Assembly (NCBI RefSeq): GCF_007752535.1
Contig: NZ_CP036426.1
Span: forward strand, 868,001 to 932,000
Direction: 5' to 3'
Source of the DNA: Tautonia plasticadhaerens
GTDB taxonomy: Bacteria; Planctomycetota; Planctomycetia; Isosphaerales; Isosphaeraceae
DNA: 64,000 nt
Within the stretch, counting starts at the first letter, position 1; the number at the start of each line of letters is the position of its first letter. The notes under the pieces are model-generated. The model did no database searches and had not been told where the DNA came from. It saw only the letters and a list, made by a program, of their open reading frames with translations. This document shows positions 13,465 to 24,026 of this stretch, piece by piece. Made by a program: the position numbers and the translations under genes.

Positions 13465-14349
13465 ATGCGTATCGGACATCGACGAGGACCGGGCCTGGCC
13501 GTCGTCCTCCTGGGCGTGCTGTCGAGCGACGCCTCGGCGGGCATCAGCGACATCGCCCCCTGGATCCACACGATCCCCCGGGTGACCTACGCCAGGGATT
13601 TGAGGACCGGCGGGATGTACTACGCCCCGCCAATCCCCTACGGCCACTACGCGAAGGATCCGGTCGGGCACCTCGTCGGCGGCGCCCAGGGTGCGGCCGG
13701 CCTCGTCACCGGCAAGCTCCACGGCCTGGGGGGGAAGCTTGGCCACGGCGGCGGCCTCGGCCACGGCGACGGCCTCGGCCACCACGGAGGATCGGACGGA
13801 TCGCTCGGCCATCATGATGGCGCGGTCCTCGGTGCGGGCCACGGGCTCGGCGGCGGCCTCGGCCACGGACTTGGCGGCGGGCTCGGCGGCCTCGGCCACG
13901 GCCATGACGACGGGCTGGGCCATCATGGTGGGGTTCATGGGTCGCCCCAATACCCCCCCGTGGCGGGTGCCGGGATCGCCTGCGATCCGTCGTCCTGCGA
14001 CGGCACGCATGGCGGGCTTTTCGGCGGGCACGGCCATGGCGGCGACGGCTTCGGCAATGGGGGCGGGTACGGGCATGGTGGTGGCCTCGGTCATGGAGAC
14101 GGACTGGGCCATGGAGATGGGCTCGGCCACGGCGGGCTGGGCGGCAAGCTCGGCCACCTGAAGGGCCTGGGCCATGGGGCACTCGGCTACCTGCACGGCC
14201 TGCACCCGGCCAACAAGGTCCGCTACTTCGTCGGACCGGGCGGCCCGGTCCCCCTGACCCCCGGTTACGTGCCCTACATCAACGTGACCCGATCCCCTCG
14301 TGATTTCTTCGCGTTCCCGCCCTACAGCTCCCGGGCCATGGATTACTGA
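13465..14349 (+). CDS. secreted Gly/His-rich repeat protein
   Basis: A 294-aa exported protein. After a signal peptide (GLAVVLLGVLSSDASA) and a 60-residue ordered lead (IPRVTYARDLRTGGMYYAPP), about 150 residues are built from variations of a GLGHGDGLGHG motif, with dozens of His and Gly. The C-terminal 60 residues are again complex (NKVRYFVGPGGPVPLTPGYV, then a Tyr/Ser/Arg end). The repeat could bind metals such as Ni, Zn or Cu, or form an extended envelope fibre; both are inferences. A 13-bp hairpin follows 30 nt after the stop. The long opposite-strand reading frame is a mirror of the repeat and not a gene. Confidence 0.75.
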   Translation: MRIGHRRGPGLAVVLLGVLSSDASAGISDIAPWIHTIPRVTYARDLRTGGMYYAPPIPYGHYAKDPVGHLVGGAQGAAGLVTGKLHGLGGKLGHGGGLGHGDGLGHHGGSDGSLGHHDGAVLGAGHGLGGGLGHGLGGGLGGLGHGHDDGLGHHGGVHGSPQYPPVAGAGIACDPSSCDGTHGGLFGGHGHGGDGFGNGGGYGHGGGLGHGDGLGHGDGLGHGGLGGKLGHLKGLGHGALGYLHGLHPANKVRYFVGPGGPVPLTPGYVPYINVTRSPRDFFAFPPYSSRAMDY

Positions 14350-14378
14350 GCCGAGCCCGCAACCCGGCGATCGAACGT

Positions 14379-14411
14379 CGGGCGGCCCGACCGGAGCGTC
14401 GGGGCCGCCCG
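14379..14411 (+). terminator. 13-bp stem-loop after the Gly/His-rich gene
   Basis: CGGGCGGCCCGAC pairs with 14398-14411 with a single bulged G around the loop CGGAGC, 30 nt after the stop codon. No T-run follows. Confidence 0.55.
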
Positions 14412-14462
14412 CACCGGGCACCGGATGGACCGCGGGCGTACCCTTCGCACGGAGGCGAACGG

Positions 14463-14993
14463 ATGTCGAGTTTGCGATTGCTGGTCCCGCTCGCGGTGGC
14501 CGGGGCGACGATCTTCCTGCCGACGGCCCGGGTCTCGGCCCAGGCCGACGGCCCGGCCGTGCCGGACCTCCGGGAGCGGAGCGGCCTGCTCACCCGGATC
14601 GTGCCCATCGAGCCCCGGCTGCCGGTCGATCGGGACCGCGACGTCTTCTATAACTCCAAGTGGTTGCCCCGCCACGAGCACTCCCGGGGCCACTGGGTCA
14701 ACTCGTGGAAGGATGGCGGCCTCTACGGGCGGGTGCTGCCCGGCGGCTGCACGACGTGCCGGTCCCCCTACTTCCGGGGCTCCCCCGGCCGCCAGACGGC
14801 CGGCGAGGCCTGCAAGCCCTTCAATCAAACCGAGCGCGTCTTCGGCAATCTGATCAAGCCGTTCCGACCCGTCGACACGTACTATTCCGGCGGGTGCTAC
14901 GTCCCTGTCTACGACCTCGACCCGCTCGTGCCCGGCCCCGGCTGGTTCCCCTGGTGGGTGCCAGACCTGGCGAACAAGCACATCGGCGGCTGA
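14463..14993 (+). CDS. secreted hypothetical protein with CxxC
   Basis: A 176-aa exported protein with a signal peptide (LLVPLAVAGATIFLPTARVSA). The mature part has a Trp/Tyr/Cys-rich make-up: CTTC (residues about 98-101), a single Cys in EACKPF, and a C-terminal segment GGCYVPVYDLDPLVPGPGW followed by aromatic residues. Four or more Cys suggest disulfides or a metal site. GGAGG precedes the ATG by about 8 nt. It is the third of the exported trio. I do not recognise the family. Confidence 0.65.
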   Translation: MSSLRLLVPLAVAGATIFLPTARVSAQADGPAVPDLRERSGLLTRIVPIEPRLPVDRDRDVFYNSKWLPRHEHSRGHWVNSWKDGGLYGRVLPGGCTTCRSPYFRGSPGRQTAGEACKPFNQTERVFGNLIKPFRPVDTYYSGGCYVPVYDLDPLVPGPGWFPWWVPDLANKHIGG

Positions 14994-15033
14994 TCGACCC
15001 CCCTCCTGACGCCTCAATTCGTGTCGCCCCCAT

Positions 15034-15070
15034 CGCGGCCCGGCCCTCCTCCCGGGGGTGCCGGGCCGCG
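15034..15070 (+). terminator. 10-bp stem-loop after the CxxC secreted protein gene
   Basis: CGCGGCCCGG at 15034-15043 pairs perfectly with 15061-15070; the 17-nt loop contains a further C-rich/G-rich pair. It starts 41 nt after the stop codon at 14993. No T-run. Confidence 0.5.
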
Positions 15071-15244
15071 TTGCGTCCACCGCCGGACGATCCCGATGAT
15101 CGATCGCTCATCCTCGCCCCTTTGAATTCGTCCGACACCTCGGAACGGCGATTGCACCGGTGGCCCCTCGTCCCGATCGGCCTACCCGAACGGCCGACTC
15201 GGGCCGAACCCGATTCCGGTCCCGCAACCACTGCGGAGGCAGTC

Positions 15245-15514
15245 ATGGCCGACGAACCGAACACCCGCAACGAATACACGCCCGAGCAACTCCGAGAGGC
15301 CAAGGGGAATTTCGACCCCTCGACGCTGGCCCGGGAGGGCGAACAGGCGAACCCCCAGGCCCAGGGTAAGCCCCAACCGACCGCCGAGGAACTCGCCGAG
15401 CAGCAGCGCCGGGGCGAGAAGGCGATCGATCAGGATAGCCGGACCCGCGAGGATCGGCTCGTGAACACCGGCCGTGGCCAGCACACCTCCGGACGCCTCG
15501 GCGGGAACAACTGA
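15245..15514 (+). CDS. small hydrophilic protein (unknown)
   Basis: An 89-aa, very hydrophilic protein rich in Glu, Gln, Asn, Arg and Thr, with no hydrophobic core or signal; probably largely disordered. The ATG is preceded by GCGGAGG at good spacing. Two genes downstream on the same strand encode an SDR dehydrogenase and a DUF3140 protein, both of types often found with general stress genes, so a role as a stress or desiccation protein is a reasonable guess. I do not recognise a family. Confidence 0.65.
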   Translation: MADEPNTRNEYTPEQLREAKGNFDPSTLAREGEQANPQAQGKPQPTAEELAEQQRRGEKAIDQDSRTREDRLVNTGRGQHTSGRLGGNN

Positions 15515-15554
15515 ATCGTCCCCCCGGACGACCTGCCCGGGCTGCCCCGCCGGG

Positions 15555-15581
15555 CGGGCGGGCGATCTCGATCGCCGCCCG
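15555..15581 (+). terminator. GC-rich stem-loop before the SDR gene
   Basis: About 11 bp of stem with one bulged G around the loop CTCG, between the small hydrophilic protein gene and the SDR gene. It could be a terminator or attenuator. Confidence 0.4.
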
Positions 15582-15613
15582 AACCCCCTCAAAACGCACC
15601 CAGGAGCGAACCG

Positions 15614-16495
15614 ATGGCCTCCAAGAGCCCGGTGACGGAGCCCTCCCCCCCCTTCGAGCCCCAGTCCCAGGAACGACCCGGCCTCGATGCGGAGATGAAC
15701 CCGAGGCCGAAGCATTCCGGCGCCGGATACCGGCCGGCCGACAAGCTCAAGGGACAGGTCGCCCTGATCACCGGGGGCGACTCGGGCATCGGCGCGGCCG
15801 TGGCCATCCTCTTCGCCCGGGAAGGGGCCGACGTGGCGATCGTCTACCTGCCCGAAGAGCAGGCCGACGCCGACCACGTCCGGGACCACGTCGAGCAGGT
15901 CGGCCGCAAGGCCCTGCTCATCCCCGGCGACATCCAGGACTCCGGATTCTGCACGCGGGCCGTCGAGGCGACCGTCAAGGAACTCGGCAAGCTCGACATC
16001 CTCGTCAACAACGCCGCCTACATGGCCAGGCGGCAGTCGATCGAGGAGATCACCGACGAGGAGCTGGATCGGACCTTCCGGACGAACATCTACTCGTACT
16101 TCTACATGACCCGAGCCGCCCTGAAGCACCTGAAGCCCGGCGGGGCGATCATCAACACGGGGTCGGTCGCCGGCATGGACGGGTCCAAGGGGATCCCGGA
16201 CTACTCGTCGTCGAAGGGGGCGATCCATTCGTTCACGAAGGCCCTGGCCCAGATGCTGGTCGAGCGCCGGATCCGGGTCAACTGCGTCGCCCCCGGGCCG
16301 GTCTGGACCCCCCTGAACGCGTCGGCCCGGGTTGAGCAGGACATGGCCGGCTACGGCAAGTCCGTGCCGATGGGCCGGCCCGGCCAGCCCGAGGAGATGG
16401 CGCCGGCCTACGTCTACTTCGCCTCGAACCCCGACAGCAGCTACGTCACCGGGGAGGTCCTCTCCCTCTACGGCGGCGTCACCCAGGCGGGTTGA
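15614..16495 (+). CDS. SDR-family oxidoreductase (YghA-like)
   Basis: A 293-aa short-chain dehydrogenase/reductase, NAD(P)-dependent. The dinucleotide loop is TGGDSGIG, followed by NNAA and the catalytic Ser-Tyr-Lys set in SVAGMDGSKGIPDYSSSKGA. The about 45-residue N-terminal extension containing KLKGQVALITGGDSGIG is typical of the E. coli YghA/B. subtilis general-stress SDR group, thought to reduce aldehydes or sugars. AGGAG lies 9 nt before the ATG. It sits between the small hydrophilic gene and DUF3140, consistent with a stress cluster. The physiological substrate is not known. Confidence 0.92.
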   Translation: MASKSPVTEPSPPFEPQSQERPGLDAEMNPRPKHSGAGYRPADKLKGQVALITGGDSGIGAAVAILFAREGADVAIVYLPEEQADADHVRDHVEQVGRKALLIPGDIQDSGFCTRAVEATVKELGKLDILVNNAAYMARRQSIEEITDEELDRTFRTNIYSYFYMTRAALKHLKPGGAIINTGSVAGMDGSKGIPDYSSSKGAIHSFTKALAQMLVERRIRVNCVAPGPVWTPLNASARVEQDMAGYGKSVPMGRPGQPEEMAPAYVYFASNPDSSYVTGEVLSLYGGVTQAG

Positions 16496-16632
16496 CGGCG
16501 GCCGATCGGGGCGGGGACGGGGGAGGGTCGAGGAGGCCGGGAGCGGGCGGTCGGCCTCGACCCCCCTGGAGCCGCCGCCCGACCCCGGACTCCCGTCCCG
16601 CCCGCCACTCCCACGAACGGAGCAGTCCACCG

Positions 16633-17013
16633 ATGGCCCAATCACCCACCTCGAAGCCGAAGCCGAAGCGGGACGGCGAGCAGACGCGCCGGGACGAGAC
16701 GATCGCGTCCTTCAAGGCTCACGTCAACATGTCCGCCTCCCAGGTCGAGGCGTGGCTCAAGACCAAGGACTCCCGCTCGGTCGGCCGCCGGAGGAGCGGG
16801 GAAGATGAGGCGGTCGGCCACAAGTCGGGGCGGAGGATCGTCGAGATCCTGCGCACGCGGAAGGCGGAGTACGGCGACGACGACTTCGCCCACATGCGCA
16901 AGGTCGTCGGCTACATCAAGCGACACCTGAAGCAGCGTCCCTCGGGCGACGTGGCCGACACGAGGTGGCGATACTCACTGATGAACTGGGGCCATGATCC
17001 GCTGAAGGATTAA
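16633..17013 (+). CDS. DUF3140 family protein
   Basis: A 126-aa protein matching the DUF3140 pattern: FKAHVNMSASQVEAWLKT, then GHKSGRRIVEILRTRKAEYG, FAHMRKVVGYIKRH and the family's terminal RWRYSLMNWGHDPLKD. The protein is basic, cytoplasmic and helical. A DNA- or nucleic-acid-related role has been suspected for the family but is not established. The ATG is preceded by GGAG. It follows the SDR gene on the same strand after a 137-nt gap. Confidence 0.88.
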   Translation: MAQSPTSKPKPKRDGEQTRRDETIASFKAHVNMSASQVEAWLKTKDSRSVGRRRSGEDEAVGHKSGRRIVEILRTRKAEYGDDDFAHMRKVVGYIKRHLKQRPSGDVADTRWRYSLMNWGHDPLKD

Positions 17014-17038
17014 TTCCCCCGGAATCGACCTCGTTCGC

Positions 17039-17068
17039 TTGACATGAGTCGCGGCGTTGCTCTATGTT
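17039..17068 (+). promoter_or_regulatory. sigma-70-type promoter for the Tex-like gene
   Basis: An exact -35 TTGACA (17039-17044), an 18-nt spacer and the -10 TATGTT (17063-17068). It would give a leader of about 130 nt before the ATG at 17204. The exact -35 box is striking in such GC-rich DNA. Confidence 0.6.
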
Positions 17069-17203
17069 GCAGCCTCCGTCGCCGCGCACCGGCCATGCTG
17101 CGCGCCGCACCATAACCCCACGACCCGGGCGCCCGATCCGCTTCCGCCTCCGCGCCCGAGGGTCTCCGCCGTCCCCCCGCGAGTTTGCCAGGTGGTCGCT
17201 CCC

Positions 17204-20200
17204 ATGGACACCCCGATTCAAGTCGACCTGGGCCGGATCGCGCAAGATTTGCAGATCCGGAGGATTCAGGTCGAGAGCGTCGTGCAGTTGCTCGACGAGG
17301 GCAACACCGTCCCCTTCATCACCCGGTATCGCAAGGAGCGGACCGGGAACCTGGAGGAGACGGCCATCCGCGAGATCCAGCGCCGGGTCGGGCGCCTCAG
17401 GGAGTTGGCCGAGCGCAAGGAGACGGTCCTCCGATCCATCGAAGCCCAGGGGAGATTGACCGAGGAACTGGCCGAGGCGATCCGACGCGCCGACTCTCCC
17501 CAGCGGCTGGAAGACCTGTACCTCCCCTTCAAGCCCAAGAAGAAGACCAAGGCCGGCGACGCCCGGGAGAAGGGCCTCGAGCCGCTCGCCCTCCGCATCT
17601 GGAACCGGGACGAGACGCTCACCGACCTCCGGACCGCCGCGGAGGCCTTCGTCGACCCCTCGAAGGGGGTCGATTCGGTCGACCAGGCGATCGAGGGGGT
17701 CGGCCACATCCTGGCCGAGTCGATCAGCGAGCTGGCCACGGTCCGGGATGCCATCCGTCGCGTCGTCTGGAGGCTCGGCCGGGTCGTCACCCGCAAGGCC
17801 GACAACCTGCCCGACGGCCAGGGCGTGAAGTACTCCGACTACTTCGAATACTCCGAGCCCCTCGGCCAGGTCCCCCCCCACCGCGTCCTCGCCATCAACC
17901 GGGGCGACAAGGAAGGCCCGCTGAAGGTCAAGATCGAGGTCCCCCGGGACGACCTGGAACGCACGATGCGCGCCCAGCTGCCGCTGGAGGACCACCCCCA
18001 GTCCGAGGCATTCACCAACGCGGCCTTCGACGCGCTGGACCGCCTGCTCATGCCGAGCCTGGAGCGGGAGGTCCGCCGGGAGCTGACCGAGCGGGCCGAG
18101 CTGCACGCCGTCGAGGTGTTCGCCCGCAACCTCCGCAGCCTGCTGCTGCAGCCGCCGATCTCCAAGCAGACGGTCCTCGCCGTCGATCCCGGCTTCCGGA
18201 CCGGCTGCAAGGTCGCCGTGCTCGACCCCCATGGGACCGTCAAGGAGCACGGCGTCGTCTTCCTGATGCCGGCCCACCGCCGGGCCGAGGGGAAGCGGTA
18301 CATCAAGGATCTCGTCGGCCGTCACGAGGTCGAGGTCATCGCCATCGGCAACGGCACCGCCAGCCGAGAGACCGAGGAGTTCGTCGTCGAAGTCCTCGAG
18401 GAAGGGACCAGGTTCCACGAGATGGCCCTCCGAGGCGAGGAGTACGTCCCGCCCCCGCCCGAGGTGCAGGACCTCCCCCCCCTGCAGGCCCCCGAGACGT
18501 TCGGCTCCGGCCTCGCCGATCCGGCGACCGGCATGACCACCGAAGCCGAGTCGACGAGCCCGCCCCCGCCCCCGGAGGCCGAACAGCCCGACAACTCCCA
18601 GGGGGTCCCGGCCGAGGGACATCCCACCGCCCCGGTGGCCGGGGACGTCCCGGAGACCCCCGGGCCCACCGCCCCCGGGCCCGACCCGGAGCTACCCCAC
18701 CCCGCCCGGGAAGTCGACTCGGCACCCGACCCCTCCCCCGAGGAATCGCCCGACGCGCCCGCCGGATCGGCCGCCAACGGCGACGGGGACCATGGCCGGA
18801 CCTCCCGCCCGGATGAGTCCGCCGAGGCGCTCCCCCCCCTCTCCGGAGGTGCCCCGGACGATCTCCCCCCGATCCGGGGGGGGGCACCTACCGACGACGA
18901 GTCTCGCCCCGAGCCCGACCCCCAGGATCCCCCCCCCTCAGGCCCCAAGCCCGACCTCCCCGCCGAGCCCGATCCCGGCGCCAACCCGGCCGACGAGCCG
19001 ACCGGCTCCCCCGAGCACGACGCCGAGCAGCCCGGCCAGTCCTCCTACGACGTCACGCCGCCGCCCGAGGGCCCCGACGCGTCCCGGGCCATGGCCGAGC
19101 AGCCCGCCGTCGCCCAGCATCTCGACACTACTCCCCATGCCCCCGCGGCGGGCACTCCTCCCGAGGAGTCCCCGGACGAGCCGACGAGCGCTTCCTCCTC
19201 ACCGTCGAGCATCGTAGCCCCCGATCCCGCCCCTGGGGCGCCGGAATTCGTGCCGGACCCCTCGGCCATCGAGGCCCCCACCGGCGCGGGCCCGGGTCCG
19301 GAGCCGTCGACCCCCGGCGAGGGGACGGCGTCCGAGGCCCCCTCGGGACCGCCGTTTGACCACGCCGACCCGGCCGAGGCCGAGGTCGCCCGGGCCGAGG
19401 CCGGGGGCGGCGAGATCGAGGCCGCACCGCTCCCGGGCGAGGCCCCGGATCCCTCCTCCTCGGCCGGCGCCACCGCCGAAGGCCAGCCCGCCGGCACCTC
19501 GGTGGTCGACCTGACCAAGCCGCCGGTCGGCTCGGGCACCAAGCCCGCCAAGGGACAGCAAACCGGCAAGAAGCAGCGCGACCGCGACCAGCGGCCCAAG
19601 CCGAAGGGCCCGCCCCCGCCGCCGATGCCCCACGCGGCCGACCCGATCCTGGCCAGGCTCTCCTACGTCATCGTGAATGAGGCGGGGGCCAGCGTCTATT
19701 CGGCCAGCCCGATCGGCAAGGAAGAGTTCCCCAGCTACGACGCCACCACGAGGGGGACGATCTCCATCGGCCGTCGGCTCCAGGATCCCCTGGCCGAATT
19801 GGTCAAGATCGAGCCCCAGAACATCGGCGTCGGCCTCTATCAACACGACGTCGGCACGAAGCAGCTCAAGGACTCGTTGGAGTCGGTCATCGAGAGCTGC
19901 GTCAATTACGTCGGCGTCGACCTGAACTCGGCCAGCGTCCCGCTGCTGAGGCACGTCTCCGGCCTGAACTCCTTGACCGCCCGTCGGTTGGTCGAGTACC
20001 GCCAGCAGCACGGCCCCTTCGTCAGGCGCGATCAGATACGGCAGATCGAGGGGGTCGGCGACGTCACCTTCACCCAGGCCGCCGGCTTCCTCAAGGTCCT
20101 CGAGGGGGAGAACCCCCTGGACCGGACCTGGGTCCACCCCGAGAGCTATCCGGCGGCCGAGTCGCTCCTGACGAGGCTCGGATTCGACCTGGGCACCCTG

Positions 20201-21277
20201 CTCGACCGCGAACGCCTGACCGCCCTCCAGGCCCGGCTCGGCGAACTGAGGGAGAAGCCCGAGGAGCTCGCCGAGCTCGCCAAGGAACTCGAACTCGGCG
20301 AGCCGACGCTCGTCGACATCATCGAGGCCCTCTCCCGACCCGGCCGGGATCCCCGCGAGGACCTGCCCAAGCCGGTCTTCAAGAAGGGCTTCCTCAAGCT
20401 GGAGGACCTTCAGGCCGGCATGGAGCTGCGGGGCACGGTCCTCAACGTGGTCGACTTCGGCGCCTTCGTCGACATCGGCCTGAAGGACTCCGGCCTGGTC
20501 CACATCAGCCAGCTCGCCAACCGGTACGTCAAGAGCCCGCACGACGTGGTCAGCGTCGGCGACGTGGTCACCGTCTGGGTCCTCAGCGTCGATCAAGACC
20601 GGAAGAAGGTCTCCTTGACGATGGTCCCCCCCGGCACCGAACGCCCCCGGGGCCGAGGCCATGGGCACGGAGACGGCGGCGAGGGCGAGGCCCGAGGCCA
20701 GGGCCAGGGCCGACCGCCCCGGGGCCGGGGTCGAGGCCGAGGCCCCGGCCATCCCCCGGAGGGGCAGGCCGCCCCGACCGAGGGGGCCGCACCCTCCGCC
20801 GAAGGAGGGACCACCGAGCGTCGCCCGGGCACCGGACGGATCCCCGGACCACCCCTGCGAGCCCAGCAAGGCCCTCGCGGTCGAGGCGGCCGGGGAGGCC
20901 CCGGAGGCCCTGGAGGCCCCGGAGGAGGCGGACGCGGTTTCGGCCGGGGAGGGCCCGGTGGTCGCGGGGGGCCCGGCGGCGGTCGTCCCGACCAGGCGGC
21001 CCCGCCCCCGCCCCGCCCGTCCCAGCCCCGAAAGCCCGCCCCACCCCCCGAGCCGCTCTCGCAGGACGCCATCAAGGGCTCCGTACCGCTCCGCTCCTTC
21101 GGCCAGTTGGCCCAGCTCTACAAGACGCGCACCCCGGACGACCCGGAGCAGGGAGATGAGCCCCAGCCGGCCCCGCCGCCGACGGCGACGACCACGGGCC
21201 AGTCCACCCCTCCCCCGGCCGATCCGGCTGCCCCCGAGTCGTCGACACCCCCCGACGAGTCGAAGCCGGACGCGTGA
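17204..21277 (+). CDS. tex: Tex-like S1 RNA-binding protein with a large internal insertion and RGG tail
   Basis: Homolog of Tex, a nucleic-acid-binding factor linked to transcription and RNA handling. Order: helical N-domain (about 1-310), RNase H-like YqgF domain from about 322 (TVLAVDPGFRTGCKVAVLD), helix-hairpin-helix region (about 900-990, SGLNSLTARRLVEY), S1 domain (about 1062-1140, GTVLNVVDFGAFVDIG). Usual Tex proteins are near 750-800 residues; this one has 1,357. Two parts explain the excess: about 410 Pro/Glu/Ala/Ser-rich residues (about 400-812) inserted within the YqgF domain, between EVLEEGTRFHE and LSYVIVNEAGASVYSA; and a C-terminal RGG/Gly-rich tail (about 1146-1286) with a short conserved-looking end (PLRSFGQLAQLYKTR). 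ATG 17204 was chosen because the family begins there and AGGTGG precedes it. Confidence 0.93.
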   Translation: MDTPIQVDLGRIAQDLQIRRIQVESVVQLLDEGNTVPFITRYRKERTGNLEETAIREIQRRVGRLRELAERKETVLRSIEAQGRLTEELAEAIRRADSPQRLEDLYLPFKPKKKTKAGDAREKGLEPLALRIWNRDETLTDLRTAAEAFVDPSKGVDSVDQAIEGVGHILAESISELATVRDAIRRVVWRLGRVVTRKADNLPDGQGVKYSDYFEYSEPLGQVPPHRVLAINRGDKEGPLKVKIEVPRDDLERTMRAQLPLEDHPQSEAFTNAAFDALDRLLMPSLEREVRRELTERAELHAVEVFARNLRSLLLQPPISKQTVLAVDPGFRTGCKVAVLDPHGTVKEHGVVFLMPAHRRAEGKRYIKDLVGRHEVEVIAIGNGTASRETEEFVVEVLEEGTRFHEMALRGEEYVPPPPEVQDLPPLQAPETFGSGLADPATGMTTEAESTSPPPPPEAEQPDNSQGVPAEGHPTAPVAGDVPETPGPTAPGPDPELPHPAREVDSAPDPSPEESPDAPAGSAANGDGDHGRTSRPDESAEALPPLSGGAPDDLPPIRGGAPTDDESRPEPDPQDPPPSGPKPDLPAEPDPGANPADEPTGSPEHDAEQPGQSSYDVTPPPEGPDASRAMAEQPAVAQHLDTTPHAPAAGTPPEESPDEPTSASSSPSSIVAPDPAPGAPEFVPDPSAIEAPTGAGPGPEPSTPGEGTASEAPSGPPFDHADPAEAEVARAEAGGGEIEAAPLPGEAPDPSSSAGATAEGQPAGTSVVDLTKPPVGSGTKPAKGQQTGKKQRDRDQRPKPKGPPPPPMPHAADPILARLSYVIVNEAGASVYSASPIGKEEFPSYDATTRGTISIGRRLQDPLAELVKIEPQNIGVGLYQHDVGTKQLKDSLESVIESCVNYVGVDLNSASVPLLRHVSGLNSLTARRLVEYRQQHGPFVRRDQIRQIEGVGDVTFTQAAGFLKVLEGENPLDRTWVHPESYPAAESLLTRLGFDLGTLLDRERLTALQARLGELREKPEELAELAKELELGEPTLVDIIEALSRPGRDPREDLPKPVFKKGFLKLEDLQAGMELRGTVLNVVDFGAFVDIGLKDSGLVHISQLANRYVKSPHDVVSVGDVVTVWVLSVDQDRKKVSLTMVPPGTERPRGRGHGHGDGGEGEARGQGQGRPPRGRGRGRGPGHPPEGQAAPTEGAAPSAEGGTTERRPGTGRIPGPPLRAQQGPRGRGGRGGPGGPGGPGGGGRGFGRGGPGGRGGPGGGRPDQAAPPPPRPSQPRKPAPPPEPLSQDAIKGSVPLRSFGQLAQLYKTRTPDDPEQGDEPQPAPPPTATTTGQSTPPPADPAAPESSTPPDESKPDA

Positions 21278-21304
21278 ACTCCTGACGCGTCATCCCTCAG
21301 GACT

Positions 21305-21343
21305 CAGGCCCGTCCCGGCCCGATCGGTCCGGGGCCGGGCCTG
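21305..21343 (+). terminator. nested stem-loop after the Tex-like gene
   Basis: CAGGCCCG (21305-21312) pairs with 21336-21343, and an inner CCCGG/CCGGG pair extends the stem. It starts 27 nt after the stop. No T-run. Confidence 0.55.
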
Positions 21344-21390
21344 CGTGCAGGCCGGATCCGGTCCGGACTAACCCACCTCCGCGCCCGACC

Positions 21391-21418
21391 TTGGCCTTCG
21401 GCCTGCAGCGCCTAGAAT
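21391..21418 (+). promoter_or_regulatory. candidate promoter of the FtsX/LolD-type pair
   Basis: TTGGCC (21391-21396), a 16-nt spacer and TAGAAT (21413-21418), 72 nt upstream of the permease start. The -10 matches consensus at 5 of 6 positions and the -35 at 4 of 6. Confidence 0.45.
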
Positions 21419-21489
21419 TCTCGGCGGCCGCTGGCCCGGCCCGATCCGCTGACGATCGACCACGCAACCGTGAGTGACCGACCCCCACC

Positions 21490-22767
21490 ATGTGGCGTTT
21501 CGCCTGGAAAAACCTGCTCACCCGACCGTTGCGCACCACCCTGGCCCTGGTCGGACTCTCCATCCCCATCCTCGGGGTGCTGGGCCTCTACAGCGTCTCG
21601 GGGGGGCTGAAGAATCTCGTCGACGACACGCTGGAGAAGATCCAGGGGGTGGTCGTCCTCCGGGAGAATGCGCCGAGCCCGGTCTTCAGCAGCGTGGATC
21701 CCGCCTACGTCGATCGGATCGCCGCGATCCCCGGCGTCCGGGCCGTCGCGCCGGAGGTCTGGGGCATCCCCCCCACCGTCGAGGGCTCCAGCCTGATGAC
21801 CAGGGCGGTCTCCGGGGAACTCGGCGGCCTGCTCAGCGGCGAGGGCGACCGGGAGCGCATGGAGCGCAGGATGCAAACCATGTTCGACGCGATCGTCCTC
21901 TCCGGGCAAGACATCCCGTCGCACATGGACCTGAACACCGCCGTCTTCGCCAACGCCATGGTCCCACCGGGGCAGGGGGGGGGGCGGTTCCTCGACGAGT
22001 CGGACATCGGCGAGAACCACATCGTCATCAGCGCCAAGATCGCCGAGAACCTCGCCTCCCCCGACGGCACCCCGAAGCGGGTGGGCGACACCCTCCGCAT
22101 CGGCTCCGACCCCGAGACGGCCGACGTCTTCGAGATCATCGGCATCTACAACACCGGTTCGATGTTCCTCGACGTGGTGATGATCACGGACATCGACGTC
22201 GCCCGCCGGGTCCTCAAGGAGCGCGAGGACAAGATCTCCAACATTTACGTCGAGTCCGACGACCCTCGACGCATCAACGAGATCGCCGCCGCCATCGAGG
22301 CCGAGCTGCCCGACGTCGACGCCCGCGAGATGGACGAGCTGGCCTCGGATTTCACCCGACTGCTCGGCGACCTGGACAAGTTCCTGCTGATGATCGTCAG
22401 CCTCGCGCTGCTCGTCGGCGTCGTCGGGATCGTGAACACGATGCTCATGAGCACCACCGAGCGGTTCGCCGAGTTCGGCGTGCTCCGCACCAATGGCTGG
22501 TCCCGGGGCGACGTGCTGCTGCTGGTGACGGCCGAGAGCGCCTACCTCGGCCTTTGGGCCGGGCTGGTCGGCTGCGGGCTGTCGATGATCCTCGTCGCCA
22601 TCGGCAATCAGTTCGTCGGCGGCGGCCTGAAGCTCGCGCTCGGCCCCGGCCTGATGGCCTTCGGCCTCGGGCTGTCCGTGGTCATGGGCGTCCTCGGGGG
22701 GCTCTATCCGGCCTGGCGGGCGTCTCGGCTGGTGCCGATGGACGCCATCCGCCTCGGCGCCCACTGA
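21490..22767 (+). CDS. FtsX/MacB-type ABC transporter permease
   Basis: A 425-aa inner-membrane permease: one transmembrane helix near the N-terminus (residues about 15-37), a periplasmic domain of about 250 residues (MacB_PCD-like), then three helices in the last 150 residues (segments LLMIVSLALLVGVVGIVNTM, AYLGLWAGLVGCGLSMILVA and GLGLSVVMGVLGGLYPAWRA). This is the LolC/MacB/FtsX topology, used for mechanotransmission and lipoprotein or small-molecule export rather than import. It pairs with the ATPase 46 nt downstream. Only one permease type is present, so a homodimer is likely. Confidence 0.9.
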   Translation: MWRFAWKNLLTRPLRTTLALVGLSIPILGVLGLYSVSGGLKNLVDDTLEKIQGVVVLRENAPSPVFSSVDPAYVDRIAAIPGVRAVAPEVWGIPPTVEGSSLMTRAVSGELGGLLSGEGDRERMERRMQTMFDAIVLSGQDIPSHMDLNTAVFANAMVPPGQGGGRFLDESDIGENHIVISAKIAENLASPDGTPKRVGDTLRIGSDPETADVFEIIGIYNTGSMFLDVVMITDIDVARRVLKEREDKISNIYVESDDPRRINEIAAAIEAELPDVDAREMDELASDFTRLLGDLDKFLLMIVSLALLVGVVGIVNTMLMSTTERFAEFGVLRTNGWSRGDVLLLVTAESAYLGLWAGLVGCGLSMILVAIGNQFVGGGLKLALGPGLMAFGLGLSVVMGVLGGLYPAWRASRLVPMDAIRLGAH

Positions 22768-22813
22768 TCTCCCCCCGATCCACACCGCCGAAGCCAGCCA
22801 GAGGCGACCCCCG

Positions 22814-23515
22814 ATGATCGACGTCCTCGACGTGACCAAGACCTACCGCCGGGGAGAGCAGCAGGTCGACGCCCTCCGGGGGGTCACCTGCCACATCCCC
22901 CGCGGCTCCTGCGCCTTCATCGTCGGCCCGTCGGGGTCGGGCAAGAGTACCCTCCTGTACCTGCTCGGGGCCCTCGACCGCCCCGGCGGCGGCTCGATCC
23001 GCATCGAGGGTTCCGACCTCACCGCCATGTCCGAACCCGAGCTGAACGCCTACCGGCGCGACCACATCGGCTTCATCTTCCAGTCGTTCAACCTGATCAA
23101 CAATCTCACGGCGATCGAGAACGTCCTCATCCCCTTCCTGCCCCGGGGCATCACCCCCGAGCAACGCGAGCGGGCCGAGCGGCTCCTGGGCGAGGTCGGC
23201 CTCGGCGACCGGACGCACCATCGCCCCCGCCAGCTCTCCGGCGGCGAGCAGCAGCGCGTCGCCATCGCCCGGGCCCTGATCAAGGACCCGGTCCTCGTCC
23301 TCGCCGACGAGCCCACCGGCGAGCTCGACTCGAAGACCGGGGACGAGATCTACCGGATCCTCCGCCGCCTCCAGGCCGAGCAATCGACGACCCTGGTCGT
23401 CGTCACCCACGACCGCCGCTTCATCCGCCCCGACGACATCGTCCTCGAGATCCAGGACGGCCTGCTCCGCACCGACGCCCAACCCCAGCCCGGCCACCTC
23501 GCCGAGGCCCGCTGA
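22814..23515 (+). CDS. LolD/MacB-type ABC transporter ATP-binding protein
   Basis: A 233-aa ATPase with Walker [10 protein letters not shown], signature [15 protein letters not shown], Walker [14 protein letters not shown] and the switch His in VVTHD. The TGELD variant and short length are those of the LolD/MacB/FtsE group. It works with the permease encoded just upstream, and together they form a complete transporter. No outer-membrane or periplasmic partner is next to them, so whether it releases lipoproteins or exports another substrate is open. It converges on the cupin gene with 10 nt between the stops. Confidence 0.94.
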
Positions 23516-23525
23516 CCGCCGCCGA

Positions 23526-24026
23526 TCAGCGCGTCAGCCGGGCGATCACCCCGGCGTGCTCCGGGTATCGCCGGGTCAATTCGTCCCGATCGGCCAGCTC
23601 GAAATCGGCGAAGTCGAATCCGGGGGCCACGGTGCACCCCACCAGCGCATACTCACCCGGTCCATCCACCGTCGCCCCGAACCAACATCCCGCGGGCACC
23701 ACCGCCTGGGGACGTTGCCCGGCGTCCAGGTCCAGGCCCACGCGATGCGCCCGATACGCCCCGCCGGGCTCGATCACGTGGACCGTCAGCGCCGAGCCCG
23801 CGTGGAAGTGCCAGACCTCGTCTGACTTCAGGCGGTGCAGGCTCGAGTACTCCTCGCCGGTCAGCAGGAAGTAGATCGCCGTCGACGCCGGCCGAGGGGC
23901 CCCATACCTCCCGCCGAGGATCCCCCCCTCGAGCCGATCGGCCGATCGGTACGACTCCCGGAAGTAACCCCCCTCGGGATGGGGCTGGAGGCCGAGGCGG
24001 TCGATCCAGGTGTTTGCATTTGTCAT
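23526..24026 (-). CDS. cupin domain protein (DUF985 family)
   Basis: A 166-aa single-domain cupin of the DUF985/Cupin_5 type. The family opening HPEGGYFRESYRS, the segment STAIYFLLTGEEYSSLHRL and the metal-site stretch SDEVWHFHAGSALTVHVI are all present; later come VPAGCWFGATV and CTVAPGFDFADFELADRDEL. Cupins of this group fold as beta-barrels, and their substrate is generally unknown. GAGGAA precedes the ATG at 24026. It is divergent from the esterase gene at 24222, with a 195-nt spacer that shows no clear promoter. Confidence 0.9.
   Translation of the reverse strand: MTNANTWIDRLGLQPHPEGGYFRESYRSADRLEGGILGGRYGAPRPASTAIYFLLTGEEYSSLHRLKSDEVWHFHAGSALTVHVIEPGGAYRAHRVGLDLDAGQRPQAVVPAGCWFGATVDGPGEYALVGCTVAPGFDFADFELADRDELTRRYPEHAGVIARLTR

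Follow-up and report, generated by a model that had tools for sequence, protein, structure and literature searches.

Tex is widespread in bacteria and its function is poorly known, and its eukaryotic homologue, Spt6, shares its core fold and has an acidic N-terminal region. The subject of this text is the tex gene of the planctomycete Tautonia plasticadhaerens (class Planctomycetia, family Isosphaeraceae), which lies on the forward strand at positions 17204-21277 of a 64,000-nucleotide stretch of the genome (contig NZ_CP036426.1, positions 868,001 to 932,000); this whole stretch will be called the window, and its numbering is used throughout. The encoded protein is a real, conserved elaboration of the known Tex family, with an acidic insert inside the YqgF domain and a basic tail carrying a short conserved peptide, and what is new about it, and open to testing, is this terminal peptide together with a charge plan that stays constant.

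The closest described systems are Tex of Pseudomonas aeruginosa (PA5201, PDB entries 3bzc and 2oce) and YhgF of Escherichia coli, both of which have the same domain order as the window Tex. The former binds nucleic acid and affects transcription, and the excerpted text of PMC13340108 presents Tex as a DNA-binding repressor. YhgF interacts with sigma70, in vivo in a medium-dependent manner, and is located on the nucleoid, as stated in an excerpt of PMC13298495, and it co-purified with the small RNA IsrA according to a passage of PMC4824073. Tex and Spt6 are treated together in the relevant passages of PMC13289920, and the title of PDB entry 7o3d indicates that the disordered regions of Spt6 cooperate with its core. 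A precedent of another kind is Rho of Bacteroides thetaiotaomicron (BtRho), which has a charged disordered region and for which condensation and control by ppGpp (guanosine tetraphosphate) are reported from experiment in the excerpted part of PMC13269538. Like the window Tex, BtRho is a bacterial transcription factor with a charged disordered region and short conserved motifs; unlike it, BtRho is unrelated to Tex, and condensation of the window Tex is a hypothesis. No account of planctomycete Tex inserts, RGG tails or terminal peptides was recognised among the literature matches listed, in agreement with a preliminary description of this DNA, which had supposed that such disorder and RGG content were not described for Tex.

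A Tex core interrupted in its YqgF domain

The open reading frame at 17204-21277 encodes 1357 residues and has zero internal stops. It extends open upstream to a TTG at 17057, and translation very likely begins at the ATG at 17204, because two relatives from the same family (L114 and L115) begin with MD.PI..DLGR[IV]AQDL as the window Tex does. Six Pfam families score above their cut-offs and follow the Tex domain order of Tex_N, central region, YqgF, helix-hairpin-helix (HhH) and S1, namely Tex_N at residues 11-80, Tex_central_region at 143-306, HHH_3 at 900-963, HHH_9 at 970-1051, S1 at 1069-1139, and Tex_YqgF in two stretches, of which the first covers residues 323-401 (profile positions 2-81) and the second window positions 19655-19783 (profile positions 84-126). 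The N-terminal half of the core is therefore made of Tex_N, the central region and the first half of YqgF (residues 1-401, 17204-18406), and the C-terminal half (19649-20638) of the second half of YqgF, HHH_3 (19901-20092), HHH_9 (20111-20356) and S1 (20408-20620). The best 25 of the 29 NCBIfam matches of the protein are S1 or helix-hairpin-helix matches below the cut-offs, PHROGs gave zero matches for it, and Rfam gave zero in window positions 14000-24000. This is the single Tex of its genome (9.4 Mb in 6 contigs), and its length, described earlier as nearly twice the normal one, does stand out against the roughly 700-870 residues of complete frames from other phyla, the 780-785 of the P. aeruginosa chains and the 773 of E. 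coli YhgF.

The two stretches of YqgF, an RNase H-like domain, are separated by an insert of 414 residues (402-815, 18407-19648) rich in Pro, Ala, Glu and Ser, with 23% Pro, 14% Ala, 18% Asp plus Glu and about 10% hydrophobic residues; P. aeruginosa Tex, in contrast, aligns without such an insert. The first 350 residues (18407-19456) form an acidic, probably disordered body with a net charge per residue of -0.17, and the last 64 (19457-19648) form a basic and polyproline end, with a net charge of +0.08 and the motif P-H-A-A-D near the border. In a model calculated with AlphaFold2 (AF2) for residues 1-1200 from a 42-row alignment, the core mostly exceeds a predicted local distance difference test score (pLDDT) of 90, with 86-98 in ten-residue blocks of the N-terminal half, and the insert leaves the core between a helix (387-409) and a strand (820-824). 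The insert is probably disordered, with pLDDT below 50 over residues 430-797, a value that a shallow alignment also lowers, so that the disorder is a prediction. The insert of about 400 residues announced as disordered by the preliminary description, and the folded core that structure prediction was to reveal, are both recovered in this model.

The three-dimensional fold expected of Tex is likewise predicted. A fold search, run with the model of a relative that lacks the insert (L119, 830 residues) and not with the window model, matched Tex 3bzc with a Z score of 38.4 and 2.9 Å over 636 residues, and Spt6 with Z scores of 19-28; the window core and the L119 model have the same order of secondary structure. 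The acidic disordered region of Spt6 is N-terminal, whereas in the window Tex the Tex_N domain starts at residue 11 and the acidic arm sits at residues 402-751 in the YqgF loop. The C-terminal tandem SH2 of Spt6 is absent from the Pfam matches of the whole window Tex and of its tail.

That the insert might be an artefact, an intein or part of a split gene is extremely improbable, as nothing was found in favour. The insert returned 0 Pfam families at E values up to 0.1 and no intein splicing domain, the frame is open in 31 frames of the family, including genomes of 1-5 contigs, and selection acts in frame, as discussed below; among the family members examined, no complete Tex is of ordinary length. 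Assembly error, intein and split gene are on these grounds rejected.

Conservation of the insert and of its charge

Tex_YqgF is found in two pieces in 43 of the 45 Isosphaeraceae genomes, which exceeds chance, and the remaining two have either the first piece only, near a contig end (G019), or none (G023). For the comparisons within this family (f1), 31 Tex frames were aligned, window included. Three frames were left out before any counting, one as a partial frame (L113) and two because they come from the same contigs as frames already present (L114 and L115, with L104 and L108). The insert is located at core position 401 in 31/31 frames and spans 168-414 residues (median 267), the window insert being the longest. 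Its body is net negative, and its last segment net positive, in every one of the 31, and P-H-x-[AS]-D occurs at the border of all of them. An alignment of the family, recommended in the preliminary description, finds both insert and tail conserved in position.

Fourteen pairs of closely related frames served to measure selection. The ratio of non-synonymous to synonymous substitution rates (dN/dS) of the insert is 0.14-0.54 in 13 pairs, with a third-position excess and with dS near saturation in many, the fourteenth pair being saturated; the core halves give 0.02-0.13. For the linker of the tail the ratio is 0.05-0.10 between members of the genus and 0.05-0.18 when all computable pairs are taken, dS being often near saturation. 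Of 13 pairs, 11 have a terminal peptide identity of 95-100% and the other two 73 and 86%, with dN/dS of 0-0.17; values for the last segment of the tail reach 0.93. The third-position excess, together with these ratios, makes the insert and the tail look translated. Judging from these comparisons, the insert is maintained in frame by purifying selection; its constraint looks loose, and that on linker and peptide tighter.

Such looseness raises the question of tolerated drift, i.e., a surface loop that is permissive to expansion would have grown without function in a genome that is large and has 70% GC, and only the core and the peptide would matter. Among six pairs from the same genus, five have 6-9 times as much non-synonymous change in the insert as in either half of the core, and the sixth has a still larger excess; the length varies from 168 to 414 residues, and other families use other loops, all of which this explanation would accommodate. 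It accords less well with a dN/dS of 0.14-0.54 instead of 1, even with dS near saturation in many pairs, or with the presence of the insert and of its body-and-end charge pattern in all family frames, and we regard it as rather unlikely. The genome itself offers a yardstick, which is a rough one because gene calling admits wrong frames: among 326 frames called in 464 kb, 37 have a hydrophobic-poor run of 80 residues or more, and the run of the Tex insert (396 residues) is the longest, a further point against drift. Ten other frames have internal runs, five with Pfam domains above the cut-off, four with no match and one (L246) with a match below it, and in none of the ten does a run fall within a Pfam-matched stretch, with the reservation that in L254 the HlyD match is partial and an interrupted domain is not fully excluded.

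Inserts are also found beyond the family. Tex_YqgF is present in 133 of 148 genomes of the class, and a survey of 85 class frames for inserts of 25 residues or more located them mainly at a few loops of the core, the sites being taken from pairwise alignment with cheap long insertions, in broad agreement with phmmer segments; with a model built from inserted rows, hmmalign assigned the f4 and f8 inserts to 400, and an insert-free model shifted other sites. Site 394-404 is used by 31/31 frames of f1, 11/16 of f3 and L116; site 353-364 by f4, f8 and two of f3; site 192-209 by 7/8 of f5, by f7, f9, f10, f13, 1/2 of f14, f16, two of f3 and L117; site 581-610 by 7/8 of f5; site 250-280 by five of f3; and site ~130-155 by L094 and L071. 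Three frames (L051, L074, L091) have an insert near the N terminus and one (L070) at the core end, and f2, f6, f11 and f15 have none at these loops. What remains constant is the charge: a net negative charge is found in 78 of 80 inserts of 60 residues or more, all 74 linkers that could be delimited before the peptide (of 85 frames) are net positive, and 41 of 44 ends of 25 residues or more after the peptide are net negative.

On a FastTree tree the sites 200, 260, 357, 401 and 600 require 5, 3, 4, 5 and 1 changes, respectively, and the peptide 4, counts that are approximate, as they come from FastTree only and involve long branches (L090, L056, L091, L044, L058); the tree left out L071 and L273-L275, and 17 other loci were entered as insert-free, their phmmer matches being single stretches. 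Because four of the five sites need several changes, repeated gain or relocation of the acidic arms seems to have taken place within the class. Some genomes outside it have Tex_YqgF matches starting at profile positions 37-40 (G183, G204, G251) or split (G195), and such matches suggest that YqgF inserts in Tex occur elsewhere in the phylum.

Several observations concern the distribution of Tex itself. Thirteen nearly complete class genomes (94-100%), from three family codes, have no Tex_YqgF match (G058, G060, G075, G108, G113, G116, G118, G128, G133, G136, G137, G148 and G152), and Tex seems to have been lost more than once in the class. A set of short Tex proteins without a tail (L072, L077, L078, L080, L269, L270 and L272, from families f2, f3, f5 and f11) cluster together on the tree, a placement that suggests horizontal spread of the tailless form, and four genomes (G115, G130, G139, G141) have a tailless Tex alongside another Tex-type frame or peptide match.

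The basic tail and its terminal peptide

The RGG- and Gly-rich tail that the preliminary description placed after S1 is present as a basic linker of 139 residues (1146-1284, 20639-21055), with 4 RGG, 13 RG and 34% Gly, next to the RNA-binding S1 domain. It is followed by the conserved peptide LSQDAIKGSVPLRSFGQLAQLYKTR (residues 1285-1309, 21056-21130), with the consensus LxxxxxxGxxPLRSFGxLxxF, and by a fast-evolving end of 48 residues (21131-21274), of the kind that is mostly net negative in the class. The peptide, the basic insert end with its P-H-x-A-D motif, and the fact that other families of the class have their inserts at other loops were all additions to the preliminary description.

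With oppositely charged disordered parts beside S1, the composition fits the eukaryotic-style RNA-condensing role that had been proposed earlier, as one of several possible functions; given that the insert is acidic and the tail basic, a charge-based self-regulation fits too. A condensate former, in which the acidic loop and the RGG tail would phase-separate Tex with RNA by analogy with the charged motifs of the BtRho disordered region, has in its favour these charges, the 4 RGG and 13 RG, and the complex coacervation of BtRho reported in the excerpted PMC13269538. Weighed against the scarcity of aromatic or aliphatic residues in the insert (~10%), the modest number of RGG and an RG content that varies between families, this role appears unlikely.

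Of 81 Tex frames from the class, 71 contain the peptide pattern. In three more (L048, L096, L097) the tail leaves the frame in the GC-rich linker, and the intact peptide is found in another frame of the same locus; these are probable frameshifts, either true ones or sequencing errors. The other seven comprise five tailless Tex (L072, L073, L077, L078, L080), one cut by a contig end (L059) and one degenerate (L094), and a further 20 loci, picked to include tailless Tex, added 11 with the peptide. When 19 genomes, that of T. plasticadhaerens included, were searched with a profile (A1) built from 34 peptides, 18 of them gave a single strong match, which lies at Tex, and the nineteenth (G012, which harbours L094) gave a weak one (E 0.069), again at Tex. 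A second protein sharing the peptide was considered and rejected, the best non-Tex matches in the 19 genomes having E values of 0.037 or weaker. The peptide is absent from 14 of the 15 class genomes that have no Tex_YqgF match, the exception being a 144-residue frame near a contig start in G156, and from 102 of 102 genomes outside the class, though 45 of those carry Tex. Within the samples searched, the pattern and profile matches indicate that it is Tex-specific and confined to this class. Against solved structures there was no convincing match, with one row at E 1.6.

On the question of what the peptide might bind, the most telling cases are three divergent Tex-like proteins of 1259-1427 residues in f5 (L273, L274 and L275, from G139, G151 and G062), whose cores are 23-26% identical to their orthologues and whose peptides are 59-77% identical; the first of these genomes also has a tailless Tex. 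The peptide outlives the diverged core in these proteins and therefore points to a partner outside the Tex core, for which this is the strongest hint.

This hint bears on another reading, in which the peptide would fold back on the Tex core as an intramolecular latch, with the linker running across S1. In the AF2 model of L119 the linker (742-791) has pLDDT below 50 and the peptide region (793-825) has 76-88 by blocks, non-helical residues included, with helices at 800-803 and 812-824; in addition, S1 positions 1080, 1095 and 1096 differ between peptide-bearing and other Tex proteins. Those positions belong to 24 that separate the two groups, and with 20 more loci the S1 positions became uncoupled from the peptide, being kept in tailless L258, L259 and L261 and absent in peptide-bearing L090. 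Since the peptide is also retained by proteins with a core identity of no more than 23-26%, we hold self-docking to be doubtful.

A tail as such is not exclusive to planctomycetes. Seventy-one of 73 non-planctomycete Tex loci have a tail of 15 residues or less, while two Lachnospiraceae tails (L177 and L189; 38 and 86 residues) terminate in LDLSALLRKWT and LDLSRLMNKWH, and E. coli YhgF (L255) has a tail of ~50 residues with RRGGG that terminates in NSAMMDALAAAMGKKR. These hydrophobic ends are unlike the planctomycete peptide, which was seen neither in P. aeruginosa Tex nor in YhgF. Planctomycetes may have extended what was already an old feature of Tex, namely a basic, flexible tail that closes with a few hydrophobic residues.

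As for the neighbouring genes, tex is followed at 21490-23515 by genes for an ABC permease and ATPase of the MacB/FtsX type. Among the planctomycete loci searched, 23 (2 of them duplicates) have a relative of the permease, all of f1, many flanks being short. Upstream of tex lies a small gene (16492-17013) with a DUF3140 domain, with relatives in two loci of the same genus (L034 and L035).

A candidate mechanism and its significance

The reading that we favour, at a probability of about 0.4, is that of a normal Tex core with three additions: an acidic arm acting electrostatically, a basic tether that would bind RNA, and a candidate docking peptide for a partner. The disorder and the charges come from computation, from which we infer docking and self-regulation. 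Planctomycetes would have added this electrostatic and tethering apparatus to an ordinary Tex core, that of a nucleic-acid-binding transcription accessory protein. The RG linker may provide additional affinity for RNA (or DNA) beside S1, and the acidic loop may be a competitor of nucleic acid at the basic linker and at the S1 and HhH surfaces, which would limit unspecific binding until Tex reaches its substrate. The linker would serve as a flexible tether for the terminal peptide, predicted to be part helix, which could dock on one constant component of the gene-expression machinery, with RNA polymerase and the ribosome as candidates. If the function resides in charge and tethering rather than in sequence, the loop would be free to vary in length and, between families, in attachment site.

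Several observations weigh against this reading. The f3 inserts occupy nearly the same site and have neither the basic end nor P-H-x-A-D, and the frames of f1 share kinship, so that 31 of 31 does not mean 31 independent events. Acidity may in part be a general property of disordered segments in bacteria, as 13 of the 39 non-Tex runs of the yardstick, which is a rough one, are net negative. The 13 nearly complete genomes without a Tex_YqgF match imply that the apparatus is not indispensable, and some Tex proteins of the class have no tail, peptide or insert (e.g., L073 and L256-L259). The scores of the L119 peptide, recovered after a linker below 50, could mean docking on Tex itself. Finally, when the window is compared with five other families, the peptide is 41-50% identical and the core 53-57%; between families, these identities indicate, the peptide is conserved, and not more than the core.

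A bolder version, which we think improbable, would have the Tex of Planctomycetia rebuilt as an elongation or ribonucleoprotein scaffold, Spt6-like in principle, where the acidic arm handles basic nucleoid proteins or shuts the RNA-binding surfaces, the RG segment acts as a basic tether, and RNA polymerase or the ribosome receives the class-specific peptide; the arm would have been regrown at several loops. If this were true, selection would keep an acidic arm on Tex and not the position of the arm.

A class-specific peptide that outlasts the divergence of the core is a handle on Tex, and its partner would show where Tex acts. The acidic loop and the RG tail, in turn, constitute a natural experiment in how a conserved machine for binding nucleic acids acquires disordered arms, a question that is usually studied in eukaryotes, with Spt6.

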